DNA of 64,000 nt from Pseudoalteromonas shioyasakiensis (GTDB taxonomy: Bacteria > Pseudomonadota > Gammaproteobacteria > Enterobacterales > Alteromonadaceae), in the NCBI GenBank assembly GCA_013391845.1, contig CP058414.1, positions 2,466,501 to 2,530,500 of the forward strand. The letters run 5' to 3'. This document shows positions 38,026 through 41,465 of this stretch, in pieces; the first letter of the stretch is position 1, and each line of letters starts with the position of its first letter. A program made the translations under genes and the position numbers. The notes below the pieces were generated by a model that made no database searches, had not been told where the DNA came from, and saw only the letters and a list, made by a program, of their open reading frames with translations.

Positions 38026-38059
38026 AGAAAAGCCGCTATTCTATGGAAAAATAGCGGCT
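38026..38059 (-). terminator. Terminator after secF
   Basis: AGCCGCTATT and AATAGCGGCT with a nine-base loop and a T-rich tail on the minus strand lie about 25 bases after the secF stop. Confidence 0.8.
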
Positions 38060-38084: not shown

Positions 38085-39005
38085 TTATGGCATATCCATA
38101 TAGGCTTTGGTTTTATCATCCAGTGTTTGGGTGTAATTTTCTGAACTTAACCCTAATAATTGCGGTAAGGTGGCGGCGATACAAATCGATGAGAAGGTGC
38201 CCACCACAATGCCTGCAAATAACGCGATAGCAAAACCCGTTAATGCAGCGCCAGCAAGCAGCCAAATACAAGCAATGGTCGCAAGTGTTGTGCCTGAGGT
38301 GATCAATGTACGCGTTAACGTAGAGCCAATTGCATCATTAATCACAACATGGGTATTAATGCGTTGATTGTCTGGCTGAATACGTAAAAGCTCTCTAACT
38401 CTGTCGCCAACAATAATTGAGTCATTTAATGAATAGCCAATAATAGCCAGTAAACTCGCCAGCACGGTTAAATTAAACTCAAGCCCTAACAAGGAAAACA
38501 AGCCAAGCACTAAGATTAAATCATGTAACAGTGCAACCACTGAGCCTACCGCGAGTCGCCATTCAAAACGTACAGCTAAATAAACCATAATGGCAATCAG
38601 TGCTGCAAATAATGCTAAACAGCCTTGCTCAAAAAGCTCATCACCGACTTGTGAACCTAAAAAAGAACTTGAAAGCACGGTAAATTCTACACCTTGCTCA
38701 TTCAGCTCTGATTGCCAATTGCTGGCTTCACTAAGCTCTGGCGCTTCTCTTAAAACAAAGTGGTATTCACCCGCTTTAGTTATGGTTAATTTGTTTGCAA
38801 TTTCAGGACTTAACTTTGCCTTTAAATCAGCAATAGTTGTTACTGACGTTGTGTTTATCTCAGTGATGTAGCCACCTGTAAAATCAAGGCCAAAGTTTAG
38901 CCCTTTGACAGATAAAACACCTAAGCTCGCGATGACTAAAACACAGCTTAGCAATAACCCTAAAACGCGCGATTTACTCGCTGCAGTTAATGTTGACCAA
39001 CTCAT
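38085..39005 (-). CDS. secF: Protein translocase subunit SecF (second-type SecDF)
   Basis: A 306-residue inner-membrane protein with six segments and the SecF core (G-L-N-F-G-L-D-F-T-G-G near residues 33-43, G-Y-S-L-N-D-S-I-I-V-G-D-R near 190-202). With SecD it uses the ion gradient to pull exported chains out of SecYEG. Its start overlaps secD by four bases (ATGA). There is no yajC, tgt or queA nearby, as there would be for the housekeeping locus, so this looks like a second, regulated SecDF pair. Confidence 0.93.
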   Translation of the reverse strand: MSWSTLTAASKSRVLGLLLSCVLVIASLGVLSVKGLNFGLDFTGGYITEINTTSVTTIADLKAKLSPEIANKLTITKAGEYHFVLREAPELSEASNWQSELNEQGVEFTVLSSSFLGSQVGDELFEQGCLALFAALIAIMVYLAVRFEWRLAVGSVVALLHDLILVLGLFSLLGLEFNLTVLASLLAIIGYSLNDSIIVGDRVRELLRIQPDNQRINTHVVINDAIGSTLTRTLITSGTTLATIACIWLLAGAALTGFAIALFAGIVVGTFSSICIAATLPQLLGLSSENYTQTLDDKTKAYMDMP

Positions 39006-40813
39006 GCTTTAGCCCCCGATAAATTTGTCAGTTTAATGTAGAGTGTTTGGCTAAGCGCTTTTGAAATGTAAACACCGGTGAATACGCTGGTTAATAGTCC
39101 GAGCGCTAATGTAATTGCAAAACCTTTCACAGGCCCATAACCAATGGCGTATAGAATGATAGCTGTGATCATGGTGGTCACATTGGCATCAAAAATGGTC
39201 GTAAATGCTTGGTTATAGCCTTGCTCTATTGCTTGATAGGTAGGTCGACCTTTACGTTTTTCCTCTTTTATTCGCTCAAAGATAATTACATTAGTATCAA
39301 CTGCCATGCCTATTGTTAATACAAGCCCTGCGATGCCCGGTAATGTCAACACCACGCCAGGTAATAACGACATTAAGCCGACTAAAGCGGTTAAATTAAG
39401 TAACAACGCAATGTTGGCAATCAGGCCTAAACGACGATACCAAAGCGCCATAAATGCAAGGGTAATACCGATACCAAGCATTAAAGCAGCTAATCCGTGT
39501 TCAATGTTTTCACTACCTAAGCTTGGACCTATGGTTTGTTCTTGAACGATTGTCACTGGCGCTGTGAGCGACCCTGCACGAAGTAAAAGCGCTAAATCGT
39601 AAGCTGCTTGTGGGCTTTTCATATTCGTAATACTAAAACGAGAACTTAAATGCTGTGCAATGTTTGCCACATTGATCACTTCGCTTTTTTTCACAACTTC
39701 GCCATTTGCATTCCGGGAGTATTCAGAATACACCGTGGCCATTGGCTTACCTATATTGTGCTTTGAAAAAGCAGACATTGCATCGCCACCTTGAGAGTCT
39801 AAGCTAAGCTGGACTAAAGGCTTGCCCCATTCATCTTTACCAACACTGGCATTATTGATGTGATCACCTGAAAAAATCGCCACAGGATTTAAATTAACAA
39901 CACCACCACCTTGCACATTAAACGCTTTACCACCCACTTCGACGACCTGATAAAAATCTAGGGTCGCTGTTGCACCAATAATGCGTTTAGCTTCTGATGG
40001 ATCTTGTACCCCTGGTAACTCGATTCGAATTCGTTGTTTACCTTGCCTTTGCGTCACCGCTTCTGTGATGCCAAGCTCTTCAATACGTCCACGCAGGGTT
40101 GTTAAGCTTTGTGCCATGACTTGTTTATTGAATTCGCTTTGGCTTTGCTCATTAAAATGCAGTAATACTGTGGTTAGGTTATTACTCGTTGATTTAGTTT
40201 GCATCAGGCCTTTGAATTGACCTTGTAAGGTTGAGATGAGTCCTGGGAGTTGCCCTTCACCGCTTGGTAAAATTTGCAGCTCAACCCCTTCTTTTACTTC
40301 ACTGGCTCTAATACCACGAATTTTGTCTTTTCGAAGCGTCAATTTAGTTTGTTGATACACACTGTTTAAGTGCTCTTGCATTGCTTTATCTAGGTCAACA
40401 TCAAGCACAAATAGCACCCCACCATTTAAGTCAAGTCCTAACTTAATCGGTGAAAGACCAAGCTGCTGAAGCCATTGTGGGCTTGTCGCATGCTCAACAA
40501 TTTTAGCTTCCAGCTGTGGGTATTGAGTTTTTATAAAACTCAGTGCATTGGCACTTTGAGTAGGCTCAGCTAATAAAATAGCCAGTTGTGCTTGGCTATC
40601 ATTAGCTTCAGACACTTCAAAACCATGTTGATTTAGTGAAGTTGTCACACTTTGCAGCGTCACAGTTTGATCTGGCAAGCTAATGTGCAACCAAGATTTG
40701 TTAGGGTAAAGATTAGGTAGTGCGCTAACCGCTAATAAAATACACGCCGCTATCATAGCGACATAACTCATTTTTAGACGACGCCATAGCGCCGGCTTTG
40801 ATTTATGTGACAT
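39002..40813 (-). CDS. secD: Protein translocase subunit SecD (second-type SecDF)
   Basis: A 603-residue inner-membrane protein with six segments and a large periplasmic P1 domain. The motif G-L-D-L-N-G-G near residue 126 (usually D-L-R-G-G) and the conserved Asp in G-M-A-V-D-T-N-V-I-I-F-E-R near 508 needed for ion coupling are present. It starts 74 bases after a small exported gene whose end resembles the VemP arrest peptide. The ribosome site (AAGGA, 40818-40827 region) is inside a 10-base complement to sequence just after that gene's stop. Translation of secD is therefore probably held shut until a ribosome stalls upstream. Confidence 0.93.
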   Translation of the reverse strand: MSHKSKPALWRRLKMSYVAMIAACILLAVSALPNLYPNKSWLHISLPDQTVTLQSVTTSLNQHGFEVSEANDSQAQLAILLAEPTQSANALSFIKTQYPQLEAKIVEHATSPQWLQQLGLSPIKLGLDLNGGVLFVLDVDLDKAMQEHLNSVYQQTKLTLRKDKIRGIRASEVKEGVELQILPSGEGQLPGLISTLQGQFKGLMQTKSTSNNLTTVLLHFNEQSQSEFNKQVMAQSLTTLRGRIEELGITEAVTQRQGKQRIRIELPGVQDPSEAKRIIGATATLDFYQVVEVGGKAFNVQGGGVVNLNPVAIFSGDHINNASVGKDEWGKPLVQLSLDSQGGDAMSAFSKHNIGKPMATVYSEYSRNANGEVVKKSEVINVANIAQHLSSRFSITNMKSPQAAYDLALLLRAGSLTAPVTIVQEQTIGPSLGSENIEHGLAALMLGIGITLAFMALWYRRLGLIANIALLLNLTALVGLMSLLPGVVLTLPGIAGLVLTIGMAVDTNVIIFERIKEEKRKGRPTYQAIEQGYNQAFTTIFDANVTTMITAIILYAIGYGPVKGFAITLALGLLTSVFTGVYISKALSQTLYIKLTNLSGAKA

Positions 40814-40817
40814 ACAT

Positions 40818-40885
40818 GACTTCCTTCCAGCATTTTCAGCCGGTAAAAAAATAATTCCAAAAATAAAAAAGTAACGAAGGAAGTC
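40818..40885 (-). promoter_or_regulatory. Stem that hides the secD ribosome binding site
   Basis: On the mRNA, GACTTCCTTC (40885 to 40876) starts two bases after the stop of the upstream gene and is a perfect 10-base complement of GAAGGAAGTC (40827 to 40818), which holds the secD Shine-Dalgarno sequence. The 48-base loop is A/T-rich. A ribosome stalled at the end of the upstream frame would cover the first arm and free the second. This is the layout known for VemP and secDF2. Confidence 0.8.
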
Positions 40886-40887
40886 GT

Positions 40888-41325
40888 TTAGCTATGGTAG
40901 GTCGTATTCGCTTTGTACAAGAGATTAGCGTCTTTCCAGCCACTAATGCGGGATTTACGTTGCGTGGCTAACGCAAACCATGGGAGCATGCGCACAGCAC
41001 TTGGTGGCGCTAAAAAGTGCTCTTTTCCCCAATCTTCAGCAAAGAATTCAATTAATAGCTCGTAATCAGGGTCAACCTGACTATGGTAAAGAAACAATGA
41101 TGAATTACTGGCAGTTAAACGCGGCACAAGGGTATCAAACCCCGATGGTTCTACCGGTTTAGGATGCTTAGCTGTATGAGTTTGAGAAATAACTGGGGTT
41201 TTAGTCAGCTCGACTTGGAACAATTTAGTGGCAGCATAGTGTGAGTGAGTGTCAGGCATAGCCATGCTCTGTGCACTAAAGAACACAGTAAATAGCAAGA
41301 TAATGACTGAGAAAAACCGTAACAA
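40888..41325 (-). CDS. vemP: VemP-like export-monitoring arrest peptide
   Basis: A 145-residue protein with a signal peptide (residues 1-22, F-F-S-A-Q-S-M-A). It has a poorly conserved middle and a C-terminal segment R-I-S-G-W-K-D-A-N-L-L-Y (126-137) that closely resembles the arrest motif of Vibrio VemP as I recall it (R-I-x-G-W-K/R-E-T-N-A-M-Y). VemP stalls its own ribosome when export is slow, and this opens the secDF2 ribosome site. Here the gene also precedes secDF, the motif ends eight residues before the stop, and the anti-Shine-Dalgarno arm begins two bases past the stop. The start is TTG with a weak ribosome site. The motif and layout are visible; stalling is inferred. Confidence 0.85.
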   Translation of the reverse strand: MLRFFSVIILLFTVFFSAQSMAMPDTHSHYAATKLFQVELTKTPVISQTHTAKHPKPVEPSGFDTLVPRLTASNSSLFLYHSQVDPDYELLIEFFAEDWGKEHFLAPPSAVRMLPWFALATQRKSRISGWKDANLLYKANTTYHS

Positions 41326-41465
41326 GAACTGACCAATAAATTAAGTGGATAACACAGCTATAATGAGGGTAAAAAAATAAAAAACAAGTTATTACTTAAA
41401 TAAAAGTAACTAAAATAAAGCGAGCCTAACTCGACCCGCTTATTAATTTAACTTTGTTAAACAAG

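Follow-up and report, generated by a model that had tools for sequence, protein, structure and literature searches.

On its minus strand, the window (the whole 64,000-nucleotide stretch of Pseudoalteromonas shioyasakiensis DNA analysed here) carries an open reading frame (ORF) of 145 residues, followed after 74 nt by secD and then secF (Table 1). This gene order, put forward in the initial annotation, was confirmed and recurs in other genomes. Re-reading of the sequence also upheld the length of the frame and the position of a VemP-like motif, RISGWKDANLLY, which is followed in the translation by eight residues as claimed, while the proposed signal peptide ahead of the motif is predicted by inspection of the N-terminus. 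The pattern R[ILVM]xGWKxxNxxY has a single occurrence across the six frames of the 64-kb window. Two terminator-like sites may bound an operon made up of the upstream ORF, secD2 and secF2, and a consensus scan for promoter-like sites returned none on the minus strand. An out-of-frame ATG at 40815-40817 (minus strand) lies four bases 5' of secD2; its frame has four codons and could compete with the secD2 start for initiation.

Table 1. Positions in the window of the upstream ORF, its operon and the associated RNA elements
Feature	Position	Strand	Basis
VemP-like upstream ORF, 145 aa, TTG start, stop at 40888-40890	40888..41325	-	sequence reading; relatives in other genomes
Predicted signal peptide, residues 1-22 (MLRFFSVIILLFTVFFSAQSMA)	41260..41325	-	inspection; hydrophobic N-terminus recurs in aligned relatives
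VemP-like motif RISGWKDANLLY, residues 126-137	40915..40950	-	translation, alignment, profile comparison
Tyr143 codon, placed by the VemP register in the P site of the predicted stall	40897..40899	-	inference
Anti-Shine-Dalgarno arm GACTTCCTTC, first base at +15, counted from the start of the Tyr143 codon	40876..40885	-	complementarity, fold, co-variation
secD2 Shine-Dalgarno arm GAAGGAAGTC	40818..40827	-	complementarity, fold, co-variation
secD2	39002..40813	-	Pfam, NCBIfam; SecD2 clade in tree
secF2	38085..39005	-	Pfam, NCBIfam
Terminator-like site upstream of the secD2-secF2 operon	41418..41441	-	consensus scan only
Terminator-like site downstream of secF2	38031..38059	-	consensus scan only

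The SecD2 partner and the distribution of the upstream ORF

The nearest named records of the ORF all belong to Pseudoalteromonas, with eight at 92-95% identity and one at 73%. Public gene models of two close relatives (P0001 and P0002) do not begin until residues 21 and 14 in the numbering of the window frame; these annotated starts cut most or all of the signal peptide, so that screens requiring a signal would miss them. In line with the VemP analogy drawn in the initial annotation, the adjacent SecD is of the SecD2 type and the genome has another SecD. A tree of 30 rows separates 14 SecD2 from 16 SecD1 rows at 100/100, the window protein grouping with the SecD2 rows, including those of VemP-bearing genomes, and a second SecD found elsewhere in the window genome falling among the SecD1 rows. 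One genome (G349) holds three SecD copies (L250, L258, L271), two of them in the SecD2 clade, and a VemP-like ORF has been seen before one SecD2-clade copy (L183).

The ORF is closely tied to this partner. With a profile built from seven sequences (A1, matches counted at E <= 0.01), the ORF was found in 66 of 108 genomes of the genus and in 64 of 246 genomes of the family, representing 22 of 52 genera. By a manual count at E <= 1.4e-172, 76 of the 108 genomes of the genus have a SecD2-type match, and each of the 76 has a related ORF, 64 detected by A1 and 12 diverged; adjacency of the pair fails in G073, where a contig end splits it, and in G039, where the gap is 634 nt. Two A1-positive genomes of the genus that have no SecD2 (G020, G088) carry the ORF before an S41 gene. 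The family sample gave a SecD2-type match at E <= 1e-138 in 56 of 246 genomes, all 56 with a related ORF (51 by A1; G027, G156, G260, G278 and G293 by further searches), a count that would miss genomes whose SecD2 is broken or weaker; G196, which has the ORF and a nearby secD, is not among the 56. In G073, at the end of a contig of P. shioyasakiensis type (L006 and L026), a second short frame repeats the C-terminal 40 residues of the ORF, which may be an assembly artefact.

A broader profile (A2, 30 rows) was searched over 394 genomes of the order at E <= 0.1 and gave matches in 106 genomes and 29 of 114 genera, weak matches included; the weakest resemble chance, some with internal stops, and 30 + 60 loci were inspected, the remainder being mostly weak. 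The wording of the initial expectation, "another marine order", understates a range in which 29 of 114 genera match.

Kinship with VemP and the C-terminal motif

Profile-profile comparison (hhalign) of the family with ten VemP-type sequences gave a probability of 97.2 and an E-value of 3e-11 over 68 columns. When A2, which contains no VemP, was compared with 177,635 PDB sequences, the VemP nascent chain (5nwy) was the top match, a weak one (E 0.082) limited to 20 residues on the motif. In the order-wide genome search canonical VemPs score E 0.0015 to 0.04 with A2. VemP itself is among the matches, as L238 matches the 5nwy nascent chain at E 3.4e-70 and has TLALFN, R85 and P67 at their published places, and genomes of its Vibrio-like genus also hold forms that match A2 over most of the length of the profile (for example L179 and L181). 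The alignment with VemP called for by the initial annotation thus speaks for kinship, through the hhalign result and the intermediate forms in Vibrio-like genomes. The window family and VemP are likely to share common descent, with canonical VemP as a diverged branch.

Direct searches with the window ORF gave no match in PDB, Pfam or NCBIfam. Pfam searches over 30 relatives returned six families with one member each (best E 0.0054) and no model covering the family, and two canonical VemP-type sequences were likewise matched by no Pfam or NCBIfam model. The description of the middle of the protein as lacking evident similarity therefore holds for these databases but not for the relatives, since across 30 aligned sequences F78, Q83 and W116 show no variation, and P86 and E93 hardly any.

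The arrest motif of Vibrio VemP has been given in strict form as HRIxGWKETNAMYVxLNxx (PMC7897499), while an RxxxWKxxNxxY-like motif marks 339 VemP-like sequences in a 2024 survey (PMC10987492). The window ORF has the broad motif near its C-terminus (R126, W130, K131, N134, Y137) and does not match the strict one: it keeps R, I, G, W, K, N, Y and A but departs from VemP at positions H138, E145, T146, A148, M149, V151, L153 and N154. In the VemP structure, the contacts of R139, W143 and K144 are with A752, uL22 and U747, Y150 stacks on C2610 and N154 on U2506; the L153A change impairs arrest, and the stall takes place during elongation at Q156/F157 (PMC5449182). R139, W143, K144 and Y150 correspond to R126, W130, K131 and Y137 of the window ORF, and L153, N154 and Q156 to N140, T141 and Y143. 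The tunnel anchor (R, W, K) is hence kept, whereas the VALNSQ of VemP (151-156), proximal to the peptidyl-transferase centre (PTC), reads KANTTY and is swapped for another conserved end (A..TYHS). The closeness to the VemP motif noted initially is accordingly real for the anchor, N and Y, but does not extend to L153, N154 and Q156, which are replaced. Applying the VemP register, in which Q156 lies 13 residues after W143 (PMC5449182), predicts a stall with Tyr143 in the P site.

Further cis elements of VemP are P67, TLALFN and R85 (PMC11470409, PMC7793623). P67 and R85 are invariant among the ten VemP-type sequences and have no evident counterpart in the window ORF; in a gapless alignment by eye, over a part where hhalign is unreliable, SLFLYHSQV of the window lies opposite TLALFNTQR of VemP and contains no Arg.

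Conservation of the C-terminal end was followed in 125 distinct secD-class ends, where R occurs in 109, T142 in 79, Y143 in 75 and H144 in 58, the only counts left unforced by the anchor pattern used for collection. W (111), K (116), N (122) and Y (115) stand at positions constrained by that pattern, which forces W or C, restricts the residues at +1, +4 and +7 and excludes ORFs that do not fit. Cys replaces the motif Trp (the Trp130 position) in 14 of the 125 ends, mostly in a Pseudoalteromonas branch. This branch (L089-L097, L099, L101-L104, L132-L143, L164, L272-L274; for example GLINDCQPANLTYRARLTYQ) retains NLxYxA..TY or a close form. To judge from these alignments, the tunnel anchor and the PTC-proximal end appear to vary separately.

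Predicted masking of the secD2 Shine-Dalgarno region

A 10-base complement to the secD Shine-Dalgarno region had been reported two bases after the stop codon of the ORF, and it is exact: GACTTCCTTC pairs over its full 10 nt with GAAGGAAGTC. Shuffled arms attain a complementary run of this length in 15 of 20,000 trials, and the complementarity can be taken as above chance because the motif, the gene order and the complementarity itself recur in other genomes. The 113-nt RNA folds with the 10-bp stem at -20.8 kcal/mol, the centroid consisting of the stem alone, so that the predicted fold contains the proposed structure, but its energy is unexceptional (z -1.35; 20 of 200 shuffles at least as stable). 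Candidates in Rfam at E <= 1 amounted to two matches, both far below the cut-offs and judged to be chance.

Since the energy of a single RNA is uninformative, an arm-swap test was used. Anchor and start were usable in 179 secD-class loci; five duplicates were dropped, the remaining 174 were dereplicated to 75, and in each a segment running from the stop codon until 16 nt past it was paired with the locus's own pre-secD segment. Own pairing averages -7.12 kcal/mol and permuted pairing -5.30 (sd 0.26), and the own mean is reached by 0 of 20,000 permutations, with the caveats that related loci are non-independent and that some secD starts have probably been placed wrongly. Four other offsets (67 loci) gave no excess, with 1738, 489, 1185 and 242 of 2,000 permutations reaching the observed value. 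Taken locus by locus, 25 of the 75 rank in the best tenth and 6 rank first, and many Colwellia-like loci have no pairing in these segments. Lineages spell the pairing differently, as in CGTTCTC/GAGAACG (L115), TCATTATCTA/TAGATAATGA (L132) and, at a VemP locus (L235), ACATCAT/ATGATGT. From lineage to lineage, the arm and the Shine-Dalgarno region change together.

Among 27 strong cases the start of the arm scatters about +4 to +17 from the P-site codon, a measure that for most of them counts one unpaired base flanking the arm. If Tyr143 occupies the P site, the leading edge of the ribosome would reach the first bases of the window stem (+15) without covering it. To this extent, the suggestion that a paused ribosome would open the stem does not hold as worded.

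A probable export-sensing arrest switch and its relatives

Read together, the gene order, the motif, the conserved end, the Shine-Dalgarno-complementary arm, its co-variation and the SecD2 partner make it quite probable that the ORF is a VemP-family export-sensing arrest peptide that controls secD2-secF2 translation in cis. The signal peptide would target the nascent chain to the Sec translocon. As long as the chain is not pulled, residues 126-143 would sit in the exit tunnel: R126, W130 and K131 would occupy the constriction, like their VemP counterparts, the lineage-specific end (N134, Y137, A139, T142, Y143) would lie close to the peptidyl-transferase centre, and translation would stall while Tyr143 occupies the P site. 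Extending as far as the first bases of the GACTTCCTTC arm, the stalled ribosome would keep the stem that hides the Shine-Dalgarno region open and SecD2F2 would be made, whereas pulling by the export machinery would release the stall, allow termination and re-formation of the stem, and leave secD2F2 silent. This reading is supported by the related ORFs in 76/76 genus and 56/56 family genomes bearing SecD2, by 5nwy as the top PDB match together with the hhalign probability and the 100/100 SecD2 clade, and by the co-variation of arm and Shine-Dalgarno region, the offsets without excess and the presence of a second SecD. Against it count the unconserved PTC-proximal part of the VemP motif, the lack of an evident R85 equivalent, the weakness and short extent of the 5nwy match, the small share of loci in the best tenth, the unexceptional fold of the single RNA and a stem barely reached by the stalled ribosome. 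Considering its differences from Vibrio VemP, the window ORF is most likely a variant of the VemP-type arrest switch.

Translational coupling in which the leader ORF causes no arrest, any ribosome at the stop transiently opening the stem and loading secD2, needs only a stem right after the stop, which is what is found; it is nonetheless unlikely, as it leaves the strongly conserved anchor motif, the ending and the signal peptide unexplained, and arrest-defective mutants of the studied RGPP locus lose induction (PMC10987492). The arrest could instead occur at termination, with Ser145 in the P site and the stop codon in the A site, where the ribosome would sit over most of the arm and would itself open the stem. 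The arm does start immediately after the stop, and in most relatives the stop lies at a near-constant distance from the motif (9 nt past the predicted P-site codon), but some end earlier (TYH stop: L157, L158, L173) or later (L159, L170 and others) and VemP stalls in elongation at Q156/F157 (PMC5449182), which makes a termination stall quite improbable. That the ORF encodes an ordinary exported protein in need of its C-terminal motif and stands before secD2 incidentally fits the predicted signal peptide, the conserved middle (F78, Q83, W116) and the lack of a family model, but is very hard to reconcile with a SecD2 tie that has no exception in the sampled genomes and with a post-stop arm that fits its own downstream Shine-Dalgarno region in both testable classes (secD and S41).

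Among known systems, vemP-secD2F2 shares with the window the signal peptide, the position before secD2-secF2, the RxSGWKxxNxxY core, the constriction contacts (R139, W143, K144) and Y150, the masking stem, the SecD2-type partner and a second SecD; the arm sequence differs. The uDF_RQH_Enterobacterales peptide of Alteromonas naphthalenivorans, as described in PMC10987492, also precedes a secDF2 gene, with a masking stem, and this system has been demonstrated both in vitro and with E. coli reporters (PMC10987492). It ends in an RGPP arrest motif, whereas the 145 aa of the window ORF contain no RGPP and no C-terminal R-[A/G]-P-P-like motif of the RAPP/RGPP arrest peptides. SecM (secA) and MifM (yidC2) resemble the proposed switch in that force-released arrest exposes a downstream Shine-Dalgarno region (PMC7897499, PMC10987492), but their arrest sequences and target genes differ (PMC7897499).

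Related ORFs were also found before other genes. At 20 loci (L098, L100, L126-L131, L145-L148, L150, L208, L215, L217-L220, L239) such an ORF lies 47-223 nt before a gene for an S41-peptidase-like protein with a hydrophobic N-terminus, PF03572 being confirmed in all four proteins scanned. The arm-swap test gave -8.84 against -4.81 (sd 0.54) kcal/mol with 0 of 20,000 permutations reaching the observed value, for 20 loci that were not dereplicated and are in part closely related. A profile of 14 S41-class ORFs (A4) aligns with A2 at 99.3 (E 3.7e-20). At E <= 1e-30, an S41 match is present in 31 of 246 family genomes, 17 of which have the ORF directly upstream by coordinates, and is absent from the window genome. 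In Serratia-like genomes, four loci (L180, L225, L226, L227) have a related ORF before a DedA-like gene; PF09335 was confirmed for the one protein scanned (L225), where dedA is followed by mzrA (NF007915, 149.6 bits, cut-off 89), whose product resembles the N-terminal region of SecD. Named relatives of the dedA-class ORF are Serratia and Chania proteins labelled hypothetical or, by one source, lipoprotein. Pairing between the stop-adjacent arm and the pre-dedA segment amounts to -11.1, -10.0, -12.8 and -5.6 kcal/mol, four values being too few for a test. The dedA-class arrangement may be what is left of a former secD2 operon, or dedA may be a new target.

Two papers treat VemP as restricted to Vibrio (PMC8887479, PMC11470409). 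The 2024 survey confined its search to regions upstream of secA, secDF and yidC, and its passage on the 339 VemP-like sequences names only Vibrio species (PMC10987492), although the VemP cluster of that survey may already include relatives beyond Vibrio. No report of S41- or dedA-class versions was found in searches of the open-licence PMC literature. On balance, we favour, with some reserve, a reading in which export-sensing arrest peptides form a family that spans the order and has VemP as one of its branches, with separate evolution of anchor and PTC-proximal end and re-use of the module for non-Sec genes, namely a dedA-mzrA operon and the gene of an exported S41-peptidase-like protein. The branches of this family would then comprise the VemP anchor with VALNSQ, the window anchor with A..TYHS, and the Pseudoalteromonas NLxYxA..TY end with a Cys-containing segment in place of GWK. 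Such a family of natural variants would reveal which tunnel contacts arrest needs, with the anchor and the PTC-proximal half separately testable, and in many marine bacteria it would link the induction of secDF2 to export stress. Should the S41 and dedA versions prove functional, export would also be monitored by arrest peptides on behalf of genes outside the export machinery.
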